A stretch of DNA of 64,000 nt. It comes from Mumia sp. Pv4-285. Its GTDB lineage: Bacteria > Actinomycetota > Actinomycetes > Propionibacteriales > Nocardioidaceae. Positions 2,411 to 48,643 of the stretch are shown here, one piece after another. Below the pieces are notes generated by a model that was not told where the DNA came from, searched no databases, and worked only from the letters and a program-made list of their open reading frames with translations. Positions within the stretch are counted from its first letter, which is position 1. The number at the start of each line of letters is the position of its first letter. A program made the translations under genes and the position numbers. The DNA lies in contig NZ_CP162023.1 of the NCBI RefSeq assembly GCF_041320275.1, positions 62,001 to 126,000 on the forward strand, written 5' to 3'.

Positions 2411-4837
2411 TCAGTTGAACTTGACCGTCATCGAGGTGCCCTGCTGCTCGAGCACCTTCACCTTGACGCCGACCGCGGGGAGCTTGACCCCGTGGTTCGG
2501 CAGCTCGGCGTACCAGTACTTCTTGGTGTCGTTGAACACCGGCTGCGCAGGCTGTGCCCGGATGTAGCTGGGCTGGCCGTTGGTGTGCAGCGTCATCGAG
2601 TCGGCCTTCTTCAGCCCGAACGGCGCGTCGTACACCTGGATGCGTGCACGCCAGGGGGCGCCCGTCGCGAGGTTGATGATCGGCTCCGGGTGGGCGTCGA
2701 TCGGCAGGTTCCGACCCTGACCGGGGTGGTCGGTCGTGTTGTTGTCAGCGACCGACGTGTCCCAGTACGAGATCAGCAGGCCCTGGCCGTAGCGGTAGTG
2801 CTCCACCCAGTCGGGCTTCGTGTTGAGCCAGCCGAAGTTGTACGGCCCGGTCTGCAGGTACTTGTCGTACCCGACGTACGACCGGTGGCCCATCACGTAG
2901 TAGTTGTTGTAGAGCATGGTCGTGGTCGCCCCGACGATGCTGTAGCCGTCGAAGGTCCAGGCCGCGCCGCCGTCCTCGGCACCGTCGGACAGGACCGTCG
3001 CACCGTCGGCGGTCACCACGATGTCGTCGAGGAACAGACCGGGACGAGTGAGGCCGCCGTCGGTCTTGTAGTACGACCGGAACAGGATCTTCTGCCCCGC
3101 GTACGCGTCCAGCGGCACGACCAGGTTGCCCCAGGCCGGGTGGGCGCCGTCGAGAGCCGGGGCGTCGGAGGCGTCGCGGTCGAACGGGTTGCCGTCGACC
3201 GTGCCGTCGAGCGACGTCCACGACTTGCCACCGTCGGTGGACGCCTGGAAGTACGCGTAGTCGTACCCGGCCTCGATGTCCCAACGCGCCTTCGCTGCGA
3301 ACGACGCCGACGTCTTGCCGGTGAGGTCGAGCTCCGTCGTCATCGAGTTCGCCAGGTCGTCGCCTGCACCGGAGAAGAACTGCTTCGTCCCGGAGGCAGG
3401 TGCGCCGTAGCTGCGCGTGACCGGCTTCTTCGGCAGCACGACGACCGCGCCCTGCGCCTTGTCGGAGTTCCACTCCTGCGGGCCGAGCTCCAGCTTCTTC
3501 TTCTGGTTGGCCGCGACCACCTCGTAGTCGAGCCAGCCGAGCTGCAGCTTCTCCCACGCGCCGAGGTCGCCGGGGCGGGTGCCCAGCGGCTCGCCGGCGT
3601 CGTTGAGGCGGCTCTGCGCCATCAGCGTCCAGTACTCGTTGGAGTTGTCGCCCTTGCTGGAGGTGTCGTACGCGTCCGGCAGACCGAGGTCGTGACCGTA
3701 CTCGTGGACGAAGACCGACAGGCCGCCGTTCTCAGGCTGGAGCGTGTAGTCGCCGACCCACAGGCCGGTGTTGCCGATCTGCGTGCCGCCGAGCGGGTTC
3801 TCCGCCGGGCCGGTGATGCCGGCGTCGGTGATGTAGGCGTACCAGCGGTGCGACCACAGCGCATCGCTGCCGTAGATCGGGTCACCGTCGGCCTCGTCGC
3901 CGCCCGCGTGGACGATCTGGAAGTGGTCGATGTAGCCGTCGGACTCGTTGAAGTTGCCGTCGCCGTCGAAGTCGTAGCGGTCGTAGGCGTCGTACGAGGC
4001 GAGCGTCTGCTTGATCTGGGCGTCGGTCTGACCCTTGGCCTTCTGGTCGGCGACCCAGGCGGTGACGCCGTCCTTGATCAAGGCCCACGAGTTGGTCTCG
4101 TCGGGGTTGCCGTCCTCGTCAAACGTGGTGCGGCCATAGCGGGCCTCGTTGTAGGGGACCTTCACCCAGTCCGAGACGGCGCCGTCGACGGTGTAGCGAC
4201 CCGACGACTGTGCCTCGTAGTAGGTCTTCACGGACTCGGCCTTCTTGCCGGTCTTGAAGTACACGTCCTCGTAGTGCTCGCGGTTGTAGTCCGCCTGCCA
4301 GACCGTCGAGTTGTCCTTGGTGCGGTCGGGCTCAGGGATCTCGTTGTGCAGAGGGCCGCCGAAGCGCTGCGGCTCGACCGCGCCCTCCTCGGTCTCCCAA
4401 CCGTCGTCGGGGTAGTCGGGGTGACGCTCGTCGCCGAACTCGGTGAGGATCACGAAGATCTTGTCGGCGCGCTCCTGCTCGAGCTCGACGTACTGGTCCT
4501 GCTTCTGGGCCTTGGTCCCGGCCTTCGCGAGCGCCTTGCGGCCGCGGGCGGTGCCGAGCGCGGCGGCCTCGGCGGGCGAGTAGGACTTGCCGACCTTGAC
4601 GACACTCGTGCCGTTCTTGGTGACGGGCTTCGACTCGCCGTTGACGACCGAGGTGATCGCCTCCTCGCGGAGGGCCCGACGCTTGTCCTCGAGCGGGTTC
4701 GGAAGCTCGTGGTCCTTCGCCGACTTCTCGGCGGCGGTGACGGGCGGTGCCGGAGACGCCGATCCCGGTGAGGCGTACGCGGCGCCGAACGAGGCCGCGA
4801 CGCCGATCGTGATGAGTGCCGTGCTGAGTCGTCTCAA
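2411..4837 (-). CDS. Secreted M6-family metalloprotease (immune inhibitor A-like)
   Basis: An exported zinc endopeptidase of about 808 residues. The zinc site HEYGHDLGLPD, of the form HExGHxxGxxD, is at about residues 378-388. A calcium-site-like DFDGDGNFNESDGY lies near residue 290, and the C-terminal half holds the beta-sandwich region usual for immune inhibitor A proteins. The start is taken as TTG (codon at 4837-4835): it directly follows GGGGAGAGAAG and gives a clean signal peptide (RRLSTALITIGVAASF...AYAS). The same frame is open further upstream to 4987, but that extension has no signal-peptide character. Transcribed alone, divergent from the phosphorylase gene. Confidence 0.85.
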   Translation of the reverse strand: MRRLSTALITIGVAASFGAAYASPGSASPAPPVTAAEKSAKDHELPNPLEDKRRALREEAITSVVNGESKPVTKNGTSVVKVGKSYSPAEAAALGTARGRKALAKAGTKAQKQDQYVELEQERADKIFVILTEFGDERHPDYPDDGWETEEGAVEPQRFGGPLHNEIPEPDRTKDNSTVWQADYNREHYEDVYFKTGKKAESVKTYYEAQSSGRYTVDGAVSDWVKVPYNEARYGRTTFDEDGNPDETNSWALIKDGVTAWVADQKAKGQTDAQIKQTLASYDAYDRYDFDGDGNFNESDGYIDHFQIVHAGGDEADGDPIYGSDALWSHRWYAYITDAGITGPAENPLGGTQIGNTGLWVGDYTLQPENGGLSVFVHEYGHDLGLPDAYDTSSKGDNSNEYWTLMAQSRLNDAGEPLGTRPGDLGAWEKLQLGWLDYEVVAANQKKKLELGPQEWNSDKAQGAVVVLPKKPVTRSYGAPASGTKQFFSGAGDDLANSMTTELDLTGKTSASFAAKARWDIEAGYDYAYFQASTDGGKSWTSLDGTVDGNPFDRDASDAPALDGAHPAWGNLVVPLDAYAGQKILFRSYYKTDGGLTRPGLFLDDIVVTADGATVLSDGAEDGGAAWTFDGYSIVGATTTMLYNNYYVMGHRSYVGYDKYLQTGPYNFGWLNTKPDWVEHYRYGQGLLISYWDTSVADNNTTDHPGQGRNLPIDAHPEPIINLATGAPWRARIQVYDAPFGLKKADSMTLHTNGQPSYIRAQPAQPVFNDTKKYWYAELPNHGVKLPAVGVKVKVLEQQGTSMTVKFN

Positions 4838-5017: not shown

Positions 5018-5860
5018 ATGCACGAGGATCGCGCCCGGCAGGCAGCGATGGCGATCGCCGAGGCGAGCGGCGTGGCTCGCCACGACGCGGTCGTCGTGCT
5101 CGGGTCCGGCTGGAGCGGGGCGCTGCAGTCGATCGGCGACCCGACCTGGACCGCGGCGGCGACGGACCTCCCGGGCTTCGCGGCGCCCACCGCACCCGGG
5201 CACGCCGGTGCCGTCGCCTCCGTGCCTCTGCGCACGGACCACGGCAAGGTGGTGCACGTGCTGATCCTGAGCGGACGCACGCACCTGTACGAGGAGCGCG
5301 GCGTCGAGGCGGTCGCGCACGGCGTCCGGACCGCCGCCGCGTGCGGTGCTCGGGTGTGCGTGCTCACCAGCGCGAACGGGTGCCTGCGCGACGAGTGGGA
5401 CGCGGGGACGGGCATGCTCGTCGCCGACCACCTCAACCTCACTGCGACTTCGCCGCTGGAGGGGGCGGCCTTCGTCGATCTCACCGACTGCTGGTCCCCG
5501 CGGCTGCGTGAGGTCGCGCGCGAGCTCGACCCATGCCTGGTCGAGGGCACGTACGCGATGCTGCGCGGTCCGGAGTACCAGACGGTGGCCGAGCTGCGGA
5601 TGCTCCGCGCGCTCGGTGCGGACGCGGTCGGCATGTCGACCGTGCACGAGGCGATCGCCGCCCGAGCCGCCGGGATGGAGGTCCTCGGCATCTCCGTCGT
5701 CACCACCACCGAGCTCGACGCCGACGGACGGCACCCCGAGATCACCGACCCCGACGCCGTGGTCGAGACCGCAGCAGCCGCCGCCACCGGGTTCGGCAGC
5801 ACGATCCACAGCATCCTTGCCGCTACCCTGCCGGACGCCGAAGAGCCCGAGGAGACCTGA
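5018..5860 (+). CDS. Purine-nucleoside phosphorylase family protein
   Basis: A 280-residue cytosolic phosphorylase of the trimeric PNP/MTAP family, which cleaves purine nucleosides with phosphate to base plus pentose-1-phosphate. Visible signatures are the phosphate loop VVLGSGWSGAL near the N-terminus, GRTHLYEERG, the TSANG block, and GADAVGMSTVHEA followed by GISVVTT in the C-terminal half. The start ATG at 5018 fits the family length; no ribosome site precedes it, so a leaderless or weakly initiated message is likely. Its stop overlaps the permease start (TGATG at 5858-5862), which ties salvage of the base to its transport. Whether it prefers guanosine, inosine or methylthioadenosine cannot be judged. 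Confidence 0.85.
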   Translation: MHEDRARQAAMAIAEASGVARHDAVVVLGSGWSGALQSIGDPTWTAAATDLPGFAAPTAPGHAGAVASVPLRTDHGKVVHVLILSGRTHLYEERGVEAVAHGVRTAAACGARVCVLTSANGCLRDEWDAGTGMLVADHLNLTATSPLEGAAFVDLTDCWSPRLREVARELDPCLVEGTYAMLRGPEYQTVAELRMLRALGADAVGMSTVHEAIAARAAGMEVLGISVVTTTELDADGRHPEITDPDAVVETAAAAATGFGSTIHSILAATLPDAEEPEET

Positions 5861-7359
5861 TGTCCCGCTACGACTTCCCCGACCCGTCCACGCCACCGCC
5901 CGGAGCCGGCCCAGTGAGTGCGCCCGCCAGCGCCATCGAGGCGAACGGCATCAACGTCATCGACGAGTCCGAGCGCAAAGGCACGCCTCGTTCGCTGTTC
6001 TGGCCGTGGTGCGCGTCCAACATCTCGGTCTTCGGCGTCGCGTACGGGGCGTACTTCCTCGGTTTCGGCGTGTCCTTCTGGCAGGCGCTCGTCGCGGGCC
6101 TGATCGGGACGATCCTGTCGTTCCTGCTCGTCGGCATCGTCTCCATCGCAGGCAAGCGCGGTTCGGCGCCGACGATGGTGCTCTCGCGTGCGGCGTTCGG
6201 CGTACGCGGCAACGCGCTCCCGAGCGCGGTCTCGTACGTGCTGCTGGTCGGCTGGGAGACGGTGCTCGTCGCCCTCGCAGCGCTCGCGAGCGCTGCGGTG
6301 ATCGAGGAGCTCGGTGGGACCGGCGGCGACGGCGCACGGATCCTCGGGTTCGTCCTCACTGCAGCCGTCGTGATCGGCGCCGGCATCCTCGGTTTCGACA
6401 CGATCATGCGGCTGCAGCGGTGGATCACGATCGCGACCGCGGTCCTCACGGTCGGCTACGTGGCGCTGACGATCGACCACGTCGACTGGGACGTCGCGTC
6501 GTCGTTGCCGTCGGGCGGGACGGCCGCGGTCGTCGGGCTCGCGATCTTCGCGACCGCGGGGTTCGGGATCAGCTGGGTGAACTCGGGCGCGGACTACTCG
6601 CGCTACCTGCCTCGTACGGCCCCGGCCGGCGGGGTCGTCCTCTGGACCACGCTCGGCGGGGCGGTCGCTCCGGTGTTCCTTGTGGTGTACGGCCTGCTGC
6701 TCGCGGGATCCGATGCGGCGCTGCTCGCCTCGCTCAGCGCCGACCCGATCGGCACCCTCGTGACGCTGCTGCCGACCTGGTACCTCGTCCCGTTCTTCCT
6801 CGTCGCTCTCGCGGGGCTGGTCGGTGGCGCCGTGCTCGACATCTACTCCTCGGGCCTGGCGCTGCTCACGCTCGGTCTGAAGACGCCGCGCTGGGTCGCG
6901 GCCGGGATCGACGGCGTCATCATGGTGATCGGCGCGATCTACTTCCTGTGGTTCGCCGACGACTTCTTCGGGCCGTTCCAGGGCTTCCTCATCACGCTCG
7001 CCGTGCCGATCGCGGCCTGGGCGGGCATCTTCATCGCCGACATCGCGCTGCGGCGGCGCGACTACGCGGCGCTCGACCTGTACGACCCCTCGGGGCGGTA
7101 CGGCGCCTGGAACGTGTGGACCGTGGTCTGGTTCCTGGTCGCGGTCGTCGTCGGATGGGGCACCGTCATCAACACGTTCGCGGACTGGCTGTCCTGGCAG
7201 GGCTACCTGCTCGGTCCGCTGGGACTCGGCGGCAAGGAGGGCGAGTGGGCGTTCGCCAACCTCGGCGTCGTCGCCGCACTCGCGATCGGCTTCGTCGGCT
7301 ACCTGATCACGGGTCGCGGCCAGGTCGCTCGCCAGGAGGCCGGCGCGAGAGGGCGGTGA
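5860..7359 (+). CDS. NCS1-family purine/pyrimidine permease
   Basis: A 499-residue membrane protein with about 12 hydrophobic segments of the nucleobase:cation symporter-1 family (cytosine, purine, allantoin or thiamine uptake). A soluble N-terminus of about 45 residues ends in ERKGTPRSLFWPWCASNISV, a typical family opening. The segment GFGISWVNSGADYSRYLPR in the middle is the conserved helix 6 region. Translation is coupled to the upstream phosphorylase (start ATG overlaps its TGA). The pair probably imports and salvages nucleobases. A hairpin repeat follows the stop. Confidence 0.87.
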   Translation: MSRYDFPDPSTPPPGAGPVSAPASAIEANGINVIDESERKGTPRSLFWPWCASNISVFGVAYGAYFLGFGVSFWQALVAGLIGTILSFLLVGIVSIAGKRGSAPTMVLSRAAFGVRGNALPSAVSYVLLVGWETVLVALAALASAAVIEELGGTGGDGARILGFVLTAAVVIGAGILGFDTIMRLQRWITIATAVLTVGYVALTIDHVDWDVASSLPSGGTAAVVGLAIFATAGFGISWVNSGADYSRYLPRTAPAGGVVLWTTLGGAVAPVFLVVYGLLLAGSDAALLASLSADPIGTLVTLLPTWYLVPFFLVALAGLVGGAVLDIYSSGLALLTLGLKTPRWVAAGIDGVIMVIGAIYFLWFADDFFGPFQGFLITLAVPIAAWAGIFIADIALRRRDYAALDLYDPSGRYGAWNVWTVVWFLVAVVVGWGTVINTFADWLSWQGYLLGPLGLGGKEGEWAFANLGVVAALAIGFVGYLITGRGQVARQEAGARGR

Positions 7360-7373
7360 CCGGGTGCGCCCCA

Positions 7374-7432
7374 CGATTTGACGCGTTATCCACCGAATCT
7401 GGCGGCGAGAACGTGGATACGGCGTCAAATCG
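7374..7432. repeat. 59-bp palindromic element, related to the CGATTTG family
   Basis: Inverted repeat with 19-bp arms (7375-7393 and 7413-7431) that differ at two positions. It begins CGATTTG and ends CAAATCG, exactly like the 60-bp elements at 11731, 27571 and 48198, and is almost the same length. Its inner arm (ACGCGTTATCCAC) differs from theirs. It lies between the convergent permease and MocR genes. Confidence 0.65.
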
Positions 7433-7527
7433 GCGGGCGCGGACTCGAAGAAGCCAGAGAGGCTGATCGCCGGACGCTCAAGGTAGGCAAGTGAAGTCCG
7501 CGACCGAGCGAATCGAGGAAGGCGTGG

Positions 7528-8877
7528 TCAGGAGGCCAAGCGCTGACCGGACGCGACGAGCCACGCGACGATGTCGTGCTCGAAGCGGAGCCCGGCCGTC
7601 GCGAGTCGAAGGTGGCGTGATCCTTCGACCGGCCCGGAGATCTCGGTTCCCAGTCCCGCGCGGATGCCGGCGCGAGCGAGACGCCGAGCAGCGGCCGGCG
7701 CGTCCGAGACCCGCACCCACAGCGCGAGCCCGTTCACGCCCGGGACGCTGATGCCCCGGCGCCGCAGTGCGCCTGCGAGCGTGTGCCACCGCTGTTCGTA
7801 CCGCGAGGCCGCCTGCGACACCATCGCCTGGACGGCGGGGTCGCCGAGCATCAGGGCGACCTTCCGCTGCGCCGTCAGCGGGGTGAAGGAACCGGTGATG
7901 TCCTGGCGGGCGCGGAGCCGGTCCGTGACGGCGGCCGAACCGCCGACGAGCGCCATCCGGATCGTGGGGCCGAGCGAGCGCTGATAGCCGCGGACGAGCA
8001 CGGACTGGTCCGGGAGCCAGCGTCCGACCGATGCCGCGGACCGGTTCGCGAGGCTCGCCGCACCGTCCTCCTCGACGACGAGGACGGCGCGCTCGGCCAG
8101 CACGGTGGCGAGCGCGCGGGCCCGGCCCGCTGTCAGGTGGTGGGCGAGCGGGTCGGCCATCCGTGGCTGGATCACGACCATCACCGGTCGCGACGCAAGC
8201 GCCTCCTCGAGGGCCTCGGGGATCATGCCCGCCTCGTCGCACGGGACATGGACGACCTGCGCGCGGACGGCAGCCAGGACCGCGCTCGTGTCCGGTGAGC
8301 ATGCCGACTCGACCGCGACCCGGTCGCCGGGGTGCACGACCAGCGCGGCGAGCTGCGCGAGCGCATCGGCGTATCCCCACGCGACGGCGAGCCCGTCCGG
8401 CACGAACGGCCACGAGTCGTACGCGACTCCTGCGAGGTCTTCGTCGACCTCGCTCGTCTCCGTGCGGTGCCACGCGAGCCGTTCTGCGGCGGCCGTGAGG
8501 TACGGGCCGGGGTCCGGGACGAGGTCGACGTCGTACGCCGGCGCGTCGAGGTCGATCCGTACCGGGGTCTCGGCACCGGCTTCCGGGCGGGACGACAGCG
8601 TGCTGAGGTCGTGGACGAAGGTGCCGTTGCGGCCGTCGGACCGGACGAGGTGCTCGTGGCGCAGCAGCGTCCACGCGGTCGCCACCGTTGTCGCACCGAC
8701 GTGCAGCGCGGAGGCGGTCGCGCGGACGGTAGGCAGCCGCGTGCCGTCGGGGAGCGTCCCCTGGCGGATCAGGCGCGAGACGTGGTCGGCGATCCCGCGG
8801 GCGGACGGCTCTGTCACGCCGGCGGCGAGCTCAGCAGCCGGCATCGACACGCTGAGTCGACGATGCCTTCCCGTCAT
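7528..8877 (-). CDS. MocR/PdxR-type GntR regulator with aminotransferase-like domain
   Basis: A 449-residue protein with an N-terminal winged helix-turn-helix (about residues 25-85, including GTRLPTVRATASALHVGATT) fused to a fold-type-I aminotransferase-like domain. In MocR proteins that domain binds PLP through a lysine in an SK motif. Here the corresponding segment reads RGYQRSLGP, with arginine (about residue 300) in place of the lysine, so PLP may not be bound as a Schiff base. The start at 8877 lacks a good ribosome site; GTG or ATG codons near residues 10-12 are alternatives. Divergent from the M14 peptidase gene; the target genes are not evident. Confidence 0.82.
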   Translation of the reverse strand: MTGRHRRLSVSMPAAELAAGVTEPSARGIADHVSRLIRQGTLPDGTRLPTVRATASALHVGATTVATAWTLLRHEHLVRSDGRNGTFVHDLSTLSSRPEAGAETPVRIDLDAPAYDVDLVPDPGPYLTAAAERLAWHRTETSEVDEDLAGVAYDSWPFVPDGLAVAWGYADALAQLAALVVHPGDRVAVESACSPDTSAVLAAVRAQVVHVPCDEAGMIPEALEEALASRPVMVVIQPRMADPLAHHLTAGRARALATVLAERAVLVVEEDGAASLANRSAASVGRWLPDQSVLVRGYQRSLGPTIRMALVGGSAAVTDRLRARQDITGSFTPLTAQRKVALMLGDPAVQAMVSQAASRYEQRWHTLAGALRRRGISVPGVNGLALWVRVSDAPAAARRLARAGIRAGLGTEISGPVEGSRHLRLATAGLRFEHDIVAWLVASGQRLAS

Positions 8878-8934: not shown

Positions 8935-9057
8935 CGTGTCCTACCGGGAAGTCCGCACAATGCCGAACAATCGCGACAGGTCCGGTCTCGTGAACGCTCA
9001 TTAACGTGAGGCAACCCCGCCGCGCACCAGCGGCGGGCTCACGTGGAAGGGCAGCAC

Positions 9058-11712
9058 ATGAGACACAGCCGATTGCTCTCCGCCGCCGTCGTCACGGCGT
9101 CGGTCGCCTTGCTCGGGACCAGCCTGGTCGCGTCCACCGCCACCGCGGAGGCGCCGTACCGGGTCACCTTGCCGGCCGCAGCGGAAGGCATCCAGACACC
9201 CGAGGAGTTCTTCGGGTTCGAGATGGGAGCGGAGGGGAAGCTCGCCGCGTACCCCGACGTCCTCGACTACATGAAGTCCATCGCCAAGAGCTCCGACCGG
9301 GTCGACTACGAGACGGTCGGCGAGACGACGATGGGGAACGAGTACGCGACCGTCTTCATCAGCGCACCGAAGAACCTCGAGCGGCTCGACGAGATCGTCG
9401 CGGCCAACCAGAAGCTGTCCGACCCGCGCAACACGTCGGAGGCCGAGGCGAAGGCGCTCGCCAAGAACAGCCTTCCGATCTACCACCTCGAGGCCACGAT
9501 CCACTCGACCGAGGTCGGCAACGGGCAGGCGATCAACGACATCGTGCACCGCCTCGCGACCGAGGACTCCGAGTTCACCGAAGAGGTCCTCACCAACTCG
9601 GTCATCATGCTCGTGCCGTCGCAGAACCCTGACGGCCAGCACCTCGTCGTGGACCACTTCAACCGGACCGCGGGCACCAACCTGGCGAGGACGTACCCGG
9701 ACCTCTACCACAAGTACACCGGGCACGACGACAACCGTGACTGGACGATGTTCACGCAGATCGAGGCTCAGTACCGCCTCGAGCTGGAGAAGAAGTACCG
9801 CCCGGTGATGACGCACATCCTGCATCAGCAGGGCAACTCCGGTGAGCGCCTCTTCGTTCCGCCGTACGGGGGCGTGACCAGCGCCAACGTGCCGCCCAAC
9901 ATGAACGCCCTCAGCTCCGCCGTCGGTCAGCACGCGATGCGGCAGCTCGCGGCGGAGGGCAAGTCCGGTGTGGGGACGGACGACTACCACATCTTCTGGA
10001 CCCTGGAGCAGCCCGTCGGATTCTTCCCGTTCACGGGCACCGGCGCGTACCTCACCGAGCTCGCCTCGGCCGTCGACCTCGCGTACCCGCAGAAGTCGAA
10101 CGACGGCAAGCCGCTCGGCCCGCAGGTCCCGACCCAGGCGCTGATCGAGCCGTACGAGAAGGACACCTGGACGCTCAAGGACATCGTCGAGTACGCCAAC
10201 ACGGCCACGTACGCGGGCATGGAGTACGTCGCGCAGAACGGCGAGAAGCTGCTGTACGACAACCTTTTCGCGGTCCCGCAGGAGTACATGGAGAACGGTG
10301 TGAAGTCCGGGGTCCAGGCGTACGTCGTCGACGCCGAGCAGCGCGACCCGTACGCGACGTACGAGATGCTGCAGCGCCTCGACTGGACACAGGTCGAGAT
10401 CGATCGGGCGACCGCCCCGTTCACCGCCGGCGGCAAGGAGTACGCCGCCGGGTCGTACGTGATCCAGACCAAGCAGCCGCGCGGCAACTGGGTCGACCAG
10501 GTGCTCGGCAAGGACACCTACCCGACCGACGACCTGCCGTACGCCGAGGCGACGACGAGCCTACCGATCCAGATGGGCGTCGCGGTCGACGAGGTGAAGG
10601 AGCCGGTCCAGGCGCAGGTCGAGCGGGTCGAGTCGGTGGAGGTTCCCGAGGTGACGATGCCGGCAGCGCCGGGCGCATCCGGGGCGTACCTCGTACGGCC
10701 TGAGTCGTACGGCACGATCCAGATGGTGGCGGCGCTGCAGAAGTCCAACATCACCACCTTCCGCGCCGGCAAGGAGTTCGCCGACGGTGGCACGACGTAC
10801 CCGGCGGGCACGTACGTGGTCCCGGCGACGCCGCAGGCGCGCTCCGTCCTGGCGACGGCGAGCAAGAAGGTCGGCGTCCCGGTGGCGGCGACCGCGGCGG
10901 CTCCGAGGGTCGAGGGCATCCAGCTCAAGCCGCGTACGCGGGTCGGCCTGCTCCGTGGGGCGAACAACATGCCCGGCGGCTGGGACATGTGGCTGATGGA
11001 CCAGTACAAGGTCAACTACGAGGTCGTCGGTGCTCAGGACTTCCAGAGCGGGAAGCTCATCGATGTGTACGACACGATCGTGCTGCCGCAGGGCATCTCC
11101 AAGTCGCGCATCGTCGACGGGCTCGACCCGGAGCGCTACGACGAGGAGTTCGCGTGGGCGTACGGCGTCGGTGAGGAGGGCTGGAAGAAGCTGCGCCAGT
11201 TCGTCCGCCAGGGCGGCACGCTGCTCGCGATCGGGTCGTCGGTGGCGACGGCCAAGGAGCTGCTGGACCTGCCGATCGAGCCGTCGCTGCCGACCGACCG
11301 TGACGAGTTCGCGACCGGCGGCAGCCTGCTGAACCACGAGTTCGACAACACCGACATGGTGGCGTGGGGCATGCCGGACGAGTGGCCGGTGTGGCTGTAC
11401 AACACGCAGGCGTGGACGCCGACGGGTCGCAAGGCGGACGTGGTCTCCACGTACCCGGAGTCGAACGTGCTCGCCAGCGGCTACCTCAAGGGCGAGGAGC
11501 ACATCGCGGGTGACGCCAACGTGGTGTCGTTCGACATCGGCAAGGGCAAGGTGGTGACGTACGGGTCGGAGATCACGTTCCGGTCGCTGCCCCGCTCGTC
11601 GTTCAACCTGCTCTACAACGCGGTGTACGGCGGACCGGCGGCGGAGGTGAACCGGACCCAGATGCGGGGTCTCAAGCCGGCGTTCTCCGCCAACGGCACG
11701 CTGCTGCAGTAG
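9058..11712 (+). CDS. Secreted M14-family zinc carboxypeptidase
   Basis: An 884-residue exported peptidase. The signal peptide spans about residues 1-31 (RHSRLLSAAVVTASVALLGTS...). The M14 zinc motif is HSTE (His149, Glu152), followed by a conserved NPDG near residue 190 and the third ligand region HILHQQGNSG near residue 255. The C-terminal third (from about residue 625, RVGLLRGANNMPGG) resembles a class-I amidotransferase-like fold seen in large secreted M14 proteins. The start at 9058 follows GGAAGGG; an in-frame GTG at 9043 is less well placed. Probably digests extracellular peptides or cell-wall material; specificity unknown. It is a single gene, ending at a 60-bp palindromic element. 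Confidence 0.87.
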   Translation: MRHSRLLSAAVVTASVALLGTSLVASTATAEAPYRVTLPAAAEGIQTPEEFFGFEMGAEGKLAAYPDVLDYMKSIAKSSDRVDYETVGETTMGNEYATVFISAPKNLERLDEIVAANQKLSDPRNTSEAEAKALAKNSLPIYHLEATIHSTEVGNGQAINDIVHRLATEDSEFTEEVLTNSVIMLVPSQNPDGQHLVVDHFNRTAGTNLARTYPDLYHKYTGHDDNRDWTMFTQIEAQYRLELEKKYRPVMTHILHQQGNSGERLFVPPYGGVTSANVPPNMNALSSAVGQHAMRQLAAEGKSGVGTDDYHIFWTLEQPVGFFPFTGTGAYLTELASAVDLAYPQKSNDGKPLGPQVPTQALIEPYEKDTWTLKDIVEYANTATYAGMEYVAQNGEKLLYDNLFAVPQEYMENGVKSGVQAYVVDAEQRDPYATYEMLQRLDWTQVEIDRATAPFTAGGKEYAAGSYVIQTKQPRGNWVDQVLGKDTYPTDDLPYAEATTSLPIQMGVAVDEVKEPVQAQVERVESVEVPEVTMPAAPGASGAYLVRPESYGTIQMVAALQKSNITTFRAGKEFADGGTTYPAGTYVVPATPQARSVLATASKKVGVPVAATAAAPRVEGIQLKPRTRVGLLRGANNMPGGWDMWLMDQYKVNYEVVGAQDFQSGKLIDVYDTIVLPQGISKSRIVDGLDPERYDEEFAWAYGVGEEGWKKLRQFVRQGGTLLAIGSSVATAKELLDLPIEPSLPTDRDEFATGGSLLNHEFDNTDMVAWGMPDEWPVWLYNTQAWTPTGRKADVVSTYPESNVLASGYLKGEEHIAGDANVVSFDIGKGKVVTYGSEITFRSLPRSSFNLLYNAVYGGPAAEVNRTQMRGLKPAFSANGTLLQ

Positions 11713-11724
11713 CGGGTCCCACCT

Positions 11725-11796
11725 CGTCCCCGATTTGGGGGGTACGACAAGGTTTTCGTGACCGGATTCCTTGTCAAACCCGCCAAATCGGGGACG
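11725..11796. repeat. 60-bp palindromic element (CGATTTG family), copy 1
   Basis: Core 11731-11790 begins CGATTTG and ends CAAATCG. The arms 11725-11752 and 11769-11796 pair over 28 bp with four mismatches and include GACAAGG and CCTTGTC. Core length (60 bp), ends and the inner CCGATTCCTTGTC-like segment match the elements at 27571-27630 and, in reverse orientation, 48198-48257. It lies between convergent genes and may also stop transcription. Confidence 0.75.
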
Positions 11797-11809: not shown

Positions 11810-12334
11810 TCAGTCCGCGTCGCGGTGCAGCTCGCTCAGCGCGAGGTAGTTGCGGGCATTGGTCTTCAACCCTTCACGCTCCTCGTCGGTGAGCGGGCGC
11901 CGCACCTTGCCCGGGACGCCCGCGACGAGCGATCCCGGCGGAACCTCGGTGTCCTGGAGGACGACGGCGCCCGCGGCGACCATCGAACCGGCGCCGATGT
12001 GAGCACCGTTGAGCACGACCGCGCCCATCCCGATCAGGCAGTCGTCCTCGACGGTGCAGCCGTGCAGCACCGCCCGGTGGCCGACGGAGACACCGGCGCC
12101 GAGGCTCACGGGCTTGTCGGTGTCGACGTGGAAGACGCACCCGTCCTGGACGTTGCTGCGTTCGCCGATGGTGATGGGGGCGTTGTCGGCGCGGAGCACG
12201 GCGCCGTACCAGACGCTCGCCTGCGGCCCGAGCGTCACGCTGCCGGTGAGCACGGCCGTCGGTGCGACGTACGAGGTCGGATCGAGGTCAGGGCTGGTCC
12301 CGCCGATGGTGCGGAGCAGAGGTGCGTCGGTCAT
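11810..12334 (-). CDS. Gamma-carbonic anhydrase family protein
   Basis: A 174-residue left-handed beta-helix protein with hexapeptide repeats throughout (for example IGAGSMVAAGAVVLQ). The three zinc-ligand histidines of the gamma class are present: one in GCVFHVDTD and two in VGHRAVLHGC. Such proteins hydrate CO2 or act as related acyltransferase-like enzymes; most actinobacterial members are uncharacterised. The stop lies 14 bp from the palindromic element. The TetR gene on the same strand ends 31 bp upstream of its ATG, so the two may share a transcript. Confidence 0.88.
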   Translation of the reverse strand: MTDAPLLRTIGGTSPDLDPTSYVAPTAVLTGSVTLGPQASVWYGAVLRADNAPITIGERSNVQDGCVFHVDTDKPVSLGAGVSVGHRAVLHGCTVEDDCLIGMGAVVLNGAHIGAGSMVAAGAVVLQDTEVPPGSLVAGVPGKVRRPLTDEEREGLKTNARNYLALSELHRDAD

Positions 12335-27510: not shown

Positions 27511-27547
27511 AGGGACCCCGGGTACGCACCAGCGACCCGGGGTCCCT
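27511..27547 (+). terminator. Intrinsic terminator of the HU gene
   Basis: AGGGACCCCGGGT and ACCCGGGGTCCCT form a perfect 13-bp stem around an 11-nt loop, 14 bp after the HU stop. No strong T-run follows (CGCGTTTCC). Confidence 0.8.
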
Positions 27548-27567
27548 CGCGTTTCCGCACGCCCCGA

Positions 27568-27633
27568 CCCCGATTTGTGCAGCGGGACAAGGGAACTCAT
27601 CTCCGATTCCTTGTCCCACTGCACAAATCGGGG
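27568..27633. repeat. 60-bp palindromic element (CGATTTG family), copy 2
   Basis: Core 27571-27630. The arms 27568-27592 and 27609-27633 pair over 25 bp with one mismatch. Ends CGATTTG/CAAATCG and the inner GACAAGG...CCGATTCCTTGTC match the copy at 11731-11790. It lies between the HU terminator and the glycosylase gene, so it is not needed as a terminator for HU. Confidence 0.8.
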
Positions 27634-27654
27634 ACGGGACGGCACACTGGTGGC

Positions 27655-46163: not shown

Positions 46164-47438
46164 ATGACGGATCTGCTCTGGCCCGGTGACGAGCGGGCCG
46201 GAGGCCTGCTGTCCGACGCGGCCGTCCTCGCGGCGATGGTCCAGGTCGAGCAGGCCTGGCTCGATGCGCTCGTCGACGCCGGGCTCGCCCCGAAGGCGCT
46301 CGACCTGGTCGGCCTCGTCGGTCCGGACGACGTGTCGGCGCTGGCGGCCGGCGCGGAGGGCGGCGGCAATCCCGTGATCGGGCTCGTGACGCTCCTGCGC
46401 GAGCGCGCGGTGCCGCCCGGTGCGGTGGAGTCCGACGCGAGCTGGATCCACCGGGGCCTCACGAGCCAGGACGTCGTCGACACCGGGCTCATGCTCGTCG
46501 TCCGCGACGCTCTCGACCGGATCACGGCCGACGTCCGCGACCAGACGGCATCGCTGATCGGGCTCGTCGAGGCGCACCGCTCGACGACGATGGTCGGACG
46601 CACGCTGACCCAGCACGCCGGGCCGACGACCTTCGGGCTCGTCGCCTCCGGGTGGCTGGACGGCGTGGTCGACGCCGGCGAGGAGATCGGTCGGGTCCGC
46701 GCGTCGCTCCCCGTCCAGGTGGGTGGCGCCGTCGGCACGCTGGCGGCGAGCACGGAGCTGGCGCGGCTCGCGGGTCTGCCTGATCCGGAGTCGACGGCAG
46801 CTCGGGTCGCGCAGCAGACCGCAGGATCGCTCGGGCTGGTCGCGGCGCGGCCTTGGCACGTACGCCGCGGGCCGGTCACGCGGGTCGGTGACGCGCTGGT
46901 CGCGGCCACCGACGTGTGGGGCCAGATCGCGACCGACGTCGTCACGCTCTCCCGCCCCGAGATCGGTGAGCTGGCCGAGCCTGCGAAGGAGGGGCGTGGA
47001 GGTTCGTCGACCATGCCCCAGAAGCAGAACCCGGTCCTGTCGGTGCTCCTGCGTCGCGCCGCGCTCGCCGCGCCCCCGCTCGCCTCCTTGCTGCACACCG
47101 CCGCCTCGCTCGCCGTGGACCAGCGACCGGACGGCTCCTGGCACGCCGAGTGGGACACCCTTCGTACGCTCGCGCGCCGGGCCGTCGTCGCCTCGTCGCA
47201 GGCCGGTGAGCTCCTCGCGGGACTGCGGGTCGATGCCGAGCGGATGCGCGCCAACCTCGATGCTGCTCGGCCGGGAGTCCTCGCCGAGCGGGACGGCATC
47301 CGGCGGCTCGCATCGGGGGCCTCGGCCACCACCACGCCCGCGGATGACCACACCGCCGATTCGTACCTCGGCGCCACCGACCTGCTCGTGGACACGGCGC
47401 TCGCCCGCGCCCGTACCTTCCTGGAGGAACCTGCATGA
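46164..47438 (+). CDS. pcaB: 3-carboxy-cis,cis-muconate cycloisomerase
   Basis: A 424-residue enzyme of the fumarase/aspartase superfamily that lactonises the dioxygenase product. The signature GGSSTMPQKQNPVLSVLL near residue 280 and SWIHRGLTSQDVVDTGLML near residue 95 are clear. The stop overlaps the next start by 4 bp (ATGA). Confidence 0.95.
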   Translation: MTDLLWPGDERAGGLLSDAAVLAAMVQVEQAWLDALVDAGLAPKALDLVGLVGPDDVSALAAGAEGGGNPVIGLVTLLRERAVPPGAVESDASWIHRGLTSQDVVDTGLMLVVRDALDRITADVRDQTASLIGLVEAHRSTTMVGRTLTQHAGPTTFGLVASGWLDGVVDAGEEIGRVRASLPVQVGGAVGTLAASTELARLAGLPDPESTAARVAQQTAGSLGLVAARPWHVRRGPVTRVGDALVAATDVWGQIATDVVTLSRPEIGELAEPAKEGRGGSSTMPQKQNPVLSVLLRRAALAAPPLASLLHTAASLAVDQRPDGSWHAEWDTLRTLARRAVVASSQAGELLAGLRVDAERMRANLDAARPGVLAERDGIRRLASGASATTTPADDHTADSYLGATDLLVDTALARARTFLEEPA

Positions 47439-48643
47439 CCGTCCCCCGCATCACCGGCGTCGAGCTGGCCGGGCACGGCGCGCTCCCCCTCCTCGTCGTC
47501 GGTCCGTCGCTCGGGACGTCGGCTCGGGCGCTGTGGTCGGCTGCGGCCAAGGAGCTCGGCGACGCCTTCCACGTGATCGGGTGGGACCTGCCGGGTCACG
47601 CCGACGGACCCGTCCGAGGGGCGTTCTCGATCGCTGAGCTGGCCGAGGGCGTCCTCGCCTTCGCCGGCGGTGCGGCCGAGGCGCGAGGGGACGAGGCACT
47701 GCGGTTCGCGTACGCGGGTGACTCCGTCGGTGGAGCGGTCGGGTTGCAGCTGATGCTCGACGCCCCCGACGCCGTCACCGCCGCGGTCCTGCTCTGCACC
47801 GGCGCGCAGATCGGGGACGCCGCGATGTGGCAGGAGCGCGCCGCGACCGCACGCGCGTCGGGGACGCCGGCGCTGGTGACGACGTCGGCTCAGCGCTGGT
47901 TCGCGCCGGGGTTCCTCGAGCGTGAGCCCGCGGCCGGGTCGGCGCTGCTGCACGTGCTGCAGGGTGCGGACGCGGAGGGGTACGCGCAGGTGTGTGAGGC
48001 GTTGACGACGTTCGACGTGCGTGATCGGCTGGGCGAGATCACCGTCCCTGTGCTCGCGGTCGCAGGCGCTCATGACGTCGCGACCCCGCCCGCGAAGCTC
48101 GAGGAGATCGTCGCCGGAGTGCAGGACGGCGAGCTGCTCCTCCTCCCCGACGTCGCGCATCTCGCCCCTGTGGAGGCGCCGGCGGAGGTAGCGTCCGCGA
48201 TTCGTGCAGTTGGTCAAGGAATCCCGGGGACAGAACCTGGATCACCTGCACAAATCGCGGACGCTGCGGATGCGTACGCGCGGGGCATGGACGTACGGCG
48301 CGCGGTGCTCGGAGACGCGCACGTCGACCGCGCCACCGCGAACGCGGACCCGTTGACACGTCCGTTCCAGGAGCTGATCACCCGGTACGCATGGGGGGAC
48401 GTCTGGGGGCGCGACGGGCTCGACCGCCGGAGTCGGTCGATGATCACGCTGGCGCTGCTCGCCGCGCTCGGGCACGAGAAGGAGCTCGCGATGCACGTCC
48501 GGGCGGCGTTGCGCAACGGGCTGACGCGCGAAGAGATCGCCGAGGTGCTGCTGCACACGGGGGTGTACGCCGGGGTGCCCGTCACGAACGCCTCGCTCGC
48601 TGTGATGCAGGGCGTCTTCGCCGATCTGGACCAGGAGACCTGA
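47435..48643 (+). CDS. pcaL: Fused 3-oxoadipate enol-lactonase / 4-carboxymuconolactone decarboxylase
   Basis: 402 residues performing two successive steps. Residues 1-250 are the PcaD alpha/beta hydrolase (nucleophile in YAGDSVGGAVG; GAHDVATPP; LLLPDVAHLAPVEAP with the His). Residues from about 275 on are PcaC (RRAVLGDAHVDRATANADPLTRPFQELITRYAWGDVWGRDGLDRRSRSM...). PcaD-PcaC fusions are known in actinobacteria as PcaL. What is odd is the linker (residues 253-276, about ASAIRAVGQGIPGTEPGSPA): its DNA is a copy of the 60-bp palindromic element found in gene gaps. Confidence 0.95.
   Translation: MTVPRITGVELAGHGALPLLVVGPSLGTSARALWSAAAKELGDAFHVIGWDLPGHADGPVRGAFSIAELAEGVLAFAGGAAEARGDEALRFAYAGDSVGGAVGLQLMLDAPDAVTAAVLLCTGAQIGDAAMWQERAATARASGTPALVTTSAQRWFAPGFLEREPAAGSALLHVLQGADAEGYAQVCEALTTFDVRDRLGEITVPVLAVAGAHDVATPPAKLEEIVAGVQDGELLLLPDVAHLAPVEAPAEVASAIRAVGQGIPGTEPGSPAQIADAADAYARGMDVRRAVLGDAHVDRATANADPLTRPFQELITRYAWGDVWGRDGLDRRSRSMITLALLAALGHEKELAMHVRAALRNGLTREEIAEVLLHTGVYAGVPVTNASLAVMQGVFADLDQET
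48193..48262. repeat. 60-bp palindromic element (CGATTTG family) inside pcaL
   Basis: Core 48198-48257. The arms 48193-48209 and 48246-48262 (GTCCGCGATTCGTGCAG and its near-complement) pair over 17 bp with one mismatch. Aligned in reverse orientation to 27571-27630 it has the same 60-bp length, shares TGCAG and CTGCACAAATCG at the ends, and has TCAAGGAATC where that copy has ACAAGGAATC. The central 12 bp have diverged. Confidence 0.75.

Follow-up and report, generated by a model that had tools for sequence, protein, structure and literature searches.

Dispersed palindromes in Mumia probably form a REPIN/RAYT-like repeat system with an AbiEi-Vsr nuclease as its enzyme

REP-type repeats that have an enzyme of their own are tied to Y1 transposases, and other short palindrome families have been described without an enzyme. 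The enzyme of the former, RAYT (REP-associated tyrosine transposase), is a Y1 protein (HUH, with a catalytic tyrosine) of the IS200/IS605 type. MITEs carry terminal inverted repeats with a target-site duplication and depend for their mobility on a related autonomous transposon that acts in trans. In AbiE type IV toxin-antitoxin systems, the AbiEi gene adjoins that of the nucleotidyltransferase toxin AbiEii; to our knowledge, fusions of AbiEi and DUF559 have otherwise been classed either as antitoxin-like or as proteins of unknown function. REPIN/RAYT systems consist of an enzyme gene between two inverted cognate repeats, together with dispersed hairpin-forming doublets; one genome can hold several types, each with a single-copy enzyme, enzyme and repeat co-diverge, and the repeats are mostly extragenic and near the 3' ends of genes (PMC2817692, PMC3116915, PMC3733652). 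The CGTC-tagged REPs (Di Nocera et al. 2013) are dispersed palindromes said to be without a known transposase; their stems measure 8-9 bp, their tag is not paired, and the members listed include no actinobacteria (PMC3733652). For the EDxHD homing endonuclease I-Bth0305I, the published target is nearly 60 bp long and is bound by a dimer (PMC3943268).

The window analysed here is a stretch of 64,000 nucleotides from Mumia sp. Pv4-285, positions 62001-126000 of a one-contig genome of 4,649,352 bases. An earlier note, made from the letters of the window alone, had described four self-folding elements with constant ends in unrelated surroundings, at 7374-7432, 11731-11790, 27571-27630 and 48198-48257. 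These coordinates are exact, all four copies fit CGATTYG-N45/46-CAAATCG (no matches in 100 dinucleotide shuffles of the window), and their RNA folding energies lie 5 to 11 standard deviations below those of shuffled sequences. The surroundings, on the other hand, are related: the stem continues for 6-8 bp past the 60-mer on both sides in subfamily-specific sequence, so that the full element is ~72-75 bp long, with a stem of ~28 bp and a loop of ~16 nt. At this length, and entered without strand, the copies of subfamily A span 11725-11796 (covariance model E 1e-16, and folding energy), 27565-27636 (covariance model E 1e-17) and 48190-48265, and the one copy of subfamily B spans 7366-7440, the last two being covariance model matches. 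An Rfam scan of the window returned two tRNAs only, with no match to the palindromes at gathering score.

Genome-wide, the pattern has 28 matches per strand at 29 places, and the reversed-pattern control has none. A covariance model built from the pattern matches finds 35 places at E<=1e-5 (E 3e-6 or better) plus one weak one, and within the window exactly the four known copies; the earlier note had set the threshold for a mobilised family at about ten copies in the genome. The layout is CGTCC[C/G]-CGATTTGTGCAGTTGATCAAGG-16 nt-CCTTGATCAACTGCACAAATCG-[G/C]GGACG in subfamily A, with CGTCC[C/G]...[C/G]GGACG as the stem extension, and GCGCCCCA-CGATTTGACGC..TTATCCACC-17 nt-GGTGGA.AA..GCGTCAAATCG-TGGGGCGC in subfamily B, extended by GCGCCCCA...TGGGGCGC. 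Apart from their length, the two share the outer CGATTTG and a few positions of the stem, and nothing else. Across the aligned copies, 15 of the 28 stem pairs are altered on both sides. The covariation score is 0.40 vs. 0.13 in shuffles, cells altered on both sides number 139 vs. 59, and shifting the partner by one base lowers the paired cells from 89% to 40-46%. The outer CGATTTG is near-invariant, with consensus ends of CGTCCSCGATTTG or GCGCCCCACGATTTG, and the inner arm is the part that distinguishes types; family members in other Mumia have identical outer ends and different inner arms.

Like REPINs, the Mumia palindromes are dispersed inverted doublets in tens of copies, here with a covarying 28-bp stem. 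Unlike REPINs, they lack the GTAG (GT(A/G)G) head, they form one ~28-bp stem rather than two short REP hairpins, and their hosts are Actinobacteria. Membership among the CGTC-tagged REPs was considered, since 'CGTC' stands at the outer end of type A, and was rejected: those repeats have short stems, an unpaired tag and no listed actinobacteria, whereas in type A the CGTC is paired, and in B-type palindromes it is missing.

Each window copy has its own setting. The 7374 copy lies between convergent permease (5533-7359, + strand) and GntR/aminotransferase (7528-8877, - strand) genes, and the 11731 copy lies between the stop of a zinc-carboxypeptidase ORF (9043-11712, + strand) and that of a hexapeptide-transferase ORF (11810-12334, - strand). 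The 27571 copy is 3' of the gene for an HU-like DNA-binding protein and immediately ahead of a Fpg/Nei-like glycosylase gene. As the earlier note had remarked, a separate hairpin precedes it: an ordinary one outside the palindrome family (GGGACCCCGGGT..ACCCGGGGTCCC, 27512-27546, + strand), read 3' of the HU-like gene and kept in part in relatives. The 48198 copy is in frame within a 402-residue ORF (47435-48643), between the hydrolase and CMD domains. There, the palindrome amounts to ~20 extra in-frame codons in the hydrolase/carboxymuconolactone decarboxylase linker, and it is absent in one species.

With genes called by a simple codon-usage method, 15 of 33 copies are in convergent, 13 in tandem and none in divergent intergenic positions, and five are within ORFs; most are no more than ~25 bp from a stop codon. 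This placement, together with very stable hairpins, is what would be expected of bidirectional terminators or mRNA 3'-end hairpins whose sequence likeness is accidental. We consider that explanation very improbable. No T-run (>=4 T) follows the element within 12 nt on any of 66 copy-strands, and we dropped the plain intrinsic-terminator reading. The length is fixed and the outer motif conserved, the type-specific sequence tracks a flanking nuclease gene (below), and copies are also found 5' of that gene and within ORFs. Without a T-run, the palindromes are not canonical intrinsic terminators, though they might influence mRNA ends, and a secondary part at gene 3' ends, in termination or at the mRNA end, may belong to them.

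In this genome and its relatives, some palindromes are paired ~1.02-1.07 kb apart, and each pair encloses one gene, always of one homologous family. Here, A palindromes flank a nuclease gene at 1,773,330-1,774,244, and B palindromes flank another at 1,024,393-1,025,322; the two proteins are 62% identical. A third homolog, 33% identical, is flanked by a different palindrome, GGTGAGC..GGTCCCACC, which is 48 bp long and has five exact copies in the genome, two of them those flanking its nuclease. Elsewhere, this third palindrome has 10 and 9 copies in two other Mumia, three in the Mumia genome G003, and one in G002, a species without a third-type nuclease. A further Mumia genome, G004, has no exact copy, and its homolog carries a shifted version of the palindrome.

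The C-terminus of the nuclease is DUF559 (PF04480 above cut-off), and the N-terminal ~165-180 residues are AbiEi-like (PADLOC AbiEi E 2e-18). An AlphaFold2 model (pLDDT 87.7) was compared with known structures, with fold matches of Z under 8 disregarded. Residues 185-289 of the model matched the catalytic domain of I-Bth0305I (3r3p) with Z 12.1 and 2.4 Å over 96 residues, NGO0050 with Z 11.2 and Vsr with Z 10.0, while residues 1-180 matched the AbiEi antitoxin 6y8q with Z 10.9 and 5.2 Å over 174 residues. Foldseek matches to mitoribosomal proteins span the Vsr-like domain only. Across 24 homologs, the active-site-type residues E188, D221 and E232 never vary, and H238 is nearly invariant. The protein is thus predicted to combine an AbiEi-like DNA-binding region with a nuclease of EDxHD homing-endonuclease/Vsr fold.

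This composition sets the Mumia system apart from each of its nearest counterparts. The enzyme gene is flanked by two cognate repeats, as in REPIN/RAYT systems, and the earlier note had proposed a search for a RAYT-like (Y1) transposase; a dedicated flanking enzyme does exist, but it is an AbiEi-Vsr/EDxHD (DUF559) nuclease and not a Y1/HUH transposase. Because both enzyme and tag differ, the system is REPIN/RAYT-like in behaviour and not a member. With EDxHD homing endonucleases it has in common the predicted fold of the C-terminal domain, and the ~60-bp target of I-Bth0305I has the length of the symmetric Mumia site. In contrast to these enzymes, the Mumia gene is in no intron or intein; it sits between two intact target-like palindromes and appears to interrupt none, its product has an AbiEi-like N-terminal region, and the putative target is dispersed in tens of copies. 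Compared with AbiEi antitoxins, which the N-terminal region resembles, the protein is fused to a nuclease, and the palindromes are on both sides of the gene and genome-wide rather than only at a promoter. The neighbouring ORFs of the five units that we read resemble, by eye, housekeeping genes (meaB, citrate synthase, pyc, lpd), and no AbiEii toxin gene was seen beside these units.

Do enzyme and palindrome types change together? We compared inner arms of 15 nt from six Mumia genomes, which together gave 182 solo half-sites. Solo arms are closest to the arms that flank the nucleases of their own genome, and the true labelling ranks first of 720 permutations. The distance between flanking arms tracks protein distance (Mantel r 0.37-0.67, P<=0.005), with the strongest correlation for residues 61-180. 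A reading of the inner arm by the N-terminal wHTH alone was considered and is unsupported, as residues 61-180 correlate better. In one unit of G001, the closest relative, the palindrome types differ between the two sides.

We next consider individual sites across species. By comparison of flanking DNA, at least 14 copies lie at sites that also hold a palindrome or a unit in another Mumia, and the arm has often been replaced there by that of another palindrome type: site 4,467,266 has four types in four species, and site 2,829,622 has B in this genome and GTTGTGAAAGC.. in G003. Within the window, the 27571 site is occupied in four species (this genome and three other Mumia) with differing arms, and the 48198 site in three, of which G001 and G003 carry arms of other types; it is empty, with the frame kept, in G005. 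The orthologous junction of 11731 has another palindrome type or none in relatives, and the 7374 site has no palindrome in G001. As an observation at the 11731 junction, G001 has tandem CGCTGGTTGAGCGAGCACCCTC units and G003 a palindrome GGTTGAGCCTGTCGAAACCCGGGTTTCGACAGGCTCAACC. At the pyc/lpd junction (3,681,109), unit and solo copy have been exchanged: this genome has a solo palindrome, and all five other Mumia have a palindrome-nuclease-palindrome unit, with differing arm types. Since orthologous sites in other species carry an altered inner arm, many copies are old, and by these comparisons the family is not a product of recent hopping alone.

Sites have also been gained or lost cleanly. 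The comparison with relatives that the earlier note had proposed found precise empty sites in sister species: those for 351,431 and 3,708,612 are clean in both G001 and G003, and several more are in G001. Neither of these two best empty sites has a clear target-site duplication. If the palindromes are set beside MITEs, the whole element is inverted repeat, and the part of the autonomous transposon would fall to the nuclease unit. The units themselves are mostly inherited vertically at a few loci, so the enzyme gene itself moves rarely. A move of the A unit from pyc/lpd to rnhA/yaaA could not be shown, as the protein tree lacked resolution.

These site histories bear on the main rival explanation, in which the palindromes are fixed host sites (a regulon, or nucleoid or replication sites) bound by a domesticated AbiEi-nuclease regulator, their sequence following its specificity by selection. 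Arms that have switched at orthologous sites in step with the resident nuclease would suit it, as would the vertical inheritance of units and a TGTGGA motif conserved before the nuclease gene. So would the loops, which are more alike at orthologous sites with differing arms (0.51 vs. 0.45, P 0.02), a weak indication that they were retained while the arms were altered in place. This explanation accounts for the persistence of sites, but not for the clean presence and absence between sister species. It also has to contend with an in-frame copy within a coding region that is missing in one species, with palindromes numbering from a few to tens per genome, and with the rewriting of both arms at dozens of sites, for which selection alone, with no copying involved, is difficult to envisage. 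On balance we find it unlikely.

To see how general the pairing is, we collected 57 homologs from three actinobacterial orders, in Mumia, other Nocardioidaceae, other families of the order, Prescottella/Rhodococcus and Halosaccharopolyspora. Hairpins occur at 1.75 per kb in the upstream flank, 1.96 per kb in the downstream flank and 0.02 per kb elsewhere in the loci, a ~90-fold difference. A strong flanking hairpin is present in 38 of the 57 (20/24 in Mumia), and on both sides in 18. Among more distant homologs (E>1e-30), only 1 of 11 has one, so the pairing is not common to all AbiEi-DUF559 proteins. The Prescottella/Rhodococcus homologs, at 33-34% identity, have CGCGTTTTGCGCACTTATCGCG.. palindromes of the same ~60-bp length class, with 17-30 exact inverted pairs of the CGCGTTTTGCGCACTTATCGCG type per genome, and this is an independent replication of the palindrome-nuclease pairing in another order. 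Halosaccharopolyspora has yet another palindrome type on both sides of the nuclease gene, and in a genome of genus g18 (G022), the GGATACTTAGACGCG type that stands beside the nuclease is present in 16 copies. No relative was found in the viral contigs searched.

The spread across orders also speaks to the possibility that the palindromes belong, as MITEs or REPs, to another, unseen transposase, whether RAYT/Y1 or a DDE element, with the nuclease genes as passengers that inserted beside them. Inverted repeats and solo copies suit MITEs and REPINs generally, and the nuclease-poor G002 retains a third-type palindrome without the third-type nuclease. Yet the genes found between paired palindromes are nuclease genes only. 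This holds in several orders and independent lineages, each of which has a palindrome type to itself, and we give the possibility little credence.

The reading that we prefer, and think probable from the sequence comparisons, is a REPIN/RAYT-like system in which the AbiEi-Vsr nuclease serves as the enzyme and the palindromes are its dispersed, non-autonomous repeats. The choice of the earlier note for a REP-like mobilised unit over independent terminators agrees with the ~35 copies, the empty sites, the missing T-run and the dedicated flanking enzyme gene. In each type, one or a few nuclease genes would be enclosed by cognate palindromes in units of ~1.2 kb, and solo copies would lie around the chromosome. 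In the mechanism that we infer, the nuclease both cuts the palindromes and causes them to spread. The protein would bind the ~60-bp symmetric site as a dimer, with its AbiEi-like region recognising the inner arm in the inverted half-sites and its EDxHD/Vsr domain cutting or nicking the DNA close to, or right at, the constant CGATTTG of the outer ends. As the DNA is repaired or re-joined, the palindrome, and sometimes the whole unit, could be copied to new places, or a palindrome already present could be overwritten so that it takes on the arm type of the nuclease in residence. Recombination between the two palindromes of a unit would delete the enzyme gene and leave a solo copy.

A more far-reaching version, which we put forward tentatively and hold to be somewhat less likely true than not, is that the palindromes are both homing target and cargo. 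The AbiEi-EDxHD nucleases would convert orthologous sites to their own type, so that the whole set shifts together, and would form a new class that is widespread across Actinobacteria. If true, this would be a bacterial counterpart of target-and-enzyme drive, in which the set of sites in a genome changes specificity together. A search of open-access full text, with subscription papers and preprints outside its scope, returned no report linking DUF559, AbiEi or Vsr-like nucleases to dispersed palindromes, and we regard the novelty of the system as provisional. Together, the palindromes and nuclease resemble an independent second version of the REP/RAYT system of mobile bacterial repeats; on the genomic comparisons made here, an unrelated nuclease fold would have arrived at the REP/RAYT architecture in Actinobacteria. 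They also supply a hypothesis for the function of AbiEi-DUF559 fusion proteins. Because a genome can hold several enzyme-palindrome pairs and the arms switch at orthologous sites, enzyme-target co-evolution is directly testable.

Several minor observations accompany these results. The TGTGGA/TCCACA motif is no more than 160 bp upstream in 53 of 57 homologs, compared with 3.3% of control windows, and is often a near-perfect DnaA box (TTGTCCACA, TTATCCACA). In loci such as L062, L067 and L111, it is 50-130 bp before the start; several have it twice, 27-28 bp apart, and it also precedes distant homologs without hairpins. Expression of the nuclease could be coupled to DnaA. In Prescottella/Rhodococcus, arrays of single half-sites in 41-42-bp steps, directed toward the gene, flank the nuclease gene (L111-L114, about 2243-2344 and 3349-3450), with one full palindrome upstream in addition. 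A genome of the same order as Mumia (G056, 8.7 Mb), with no nuclease homolog at E 1e-15, has three palindromes of 57 bp, CGATTTGCCGCTCGTCTGCTACCTG.., whose outer ends are those of the Mumia palindromes. At 3,808,748 (L053), the site of a B palindrome in this genome, both G001 and G003 carry another, divergent AbiEi-nuclease-like gene (L225:904-2043, and L226), whose product is Pfam AbiEi_4 with an hhalign E of 4e-8 to the nuclease family; other short inverted repeats are nearby. Finally, 15 of the 35 copies lie no more than 450 kb from the contig ends, where 19% would be expected.
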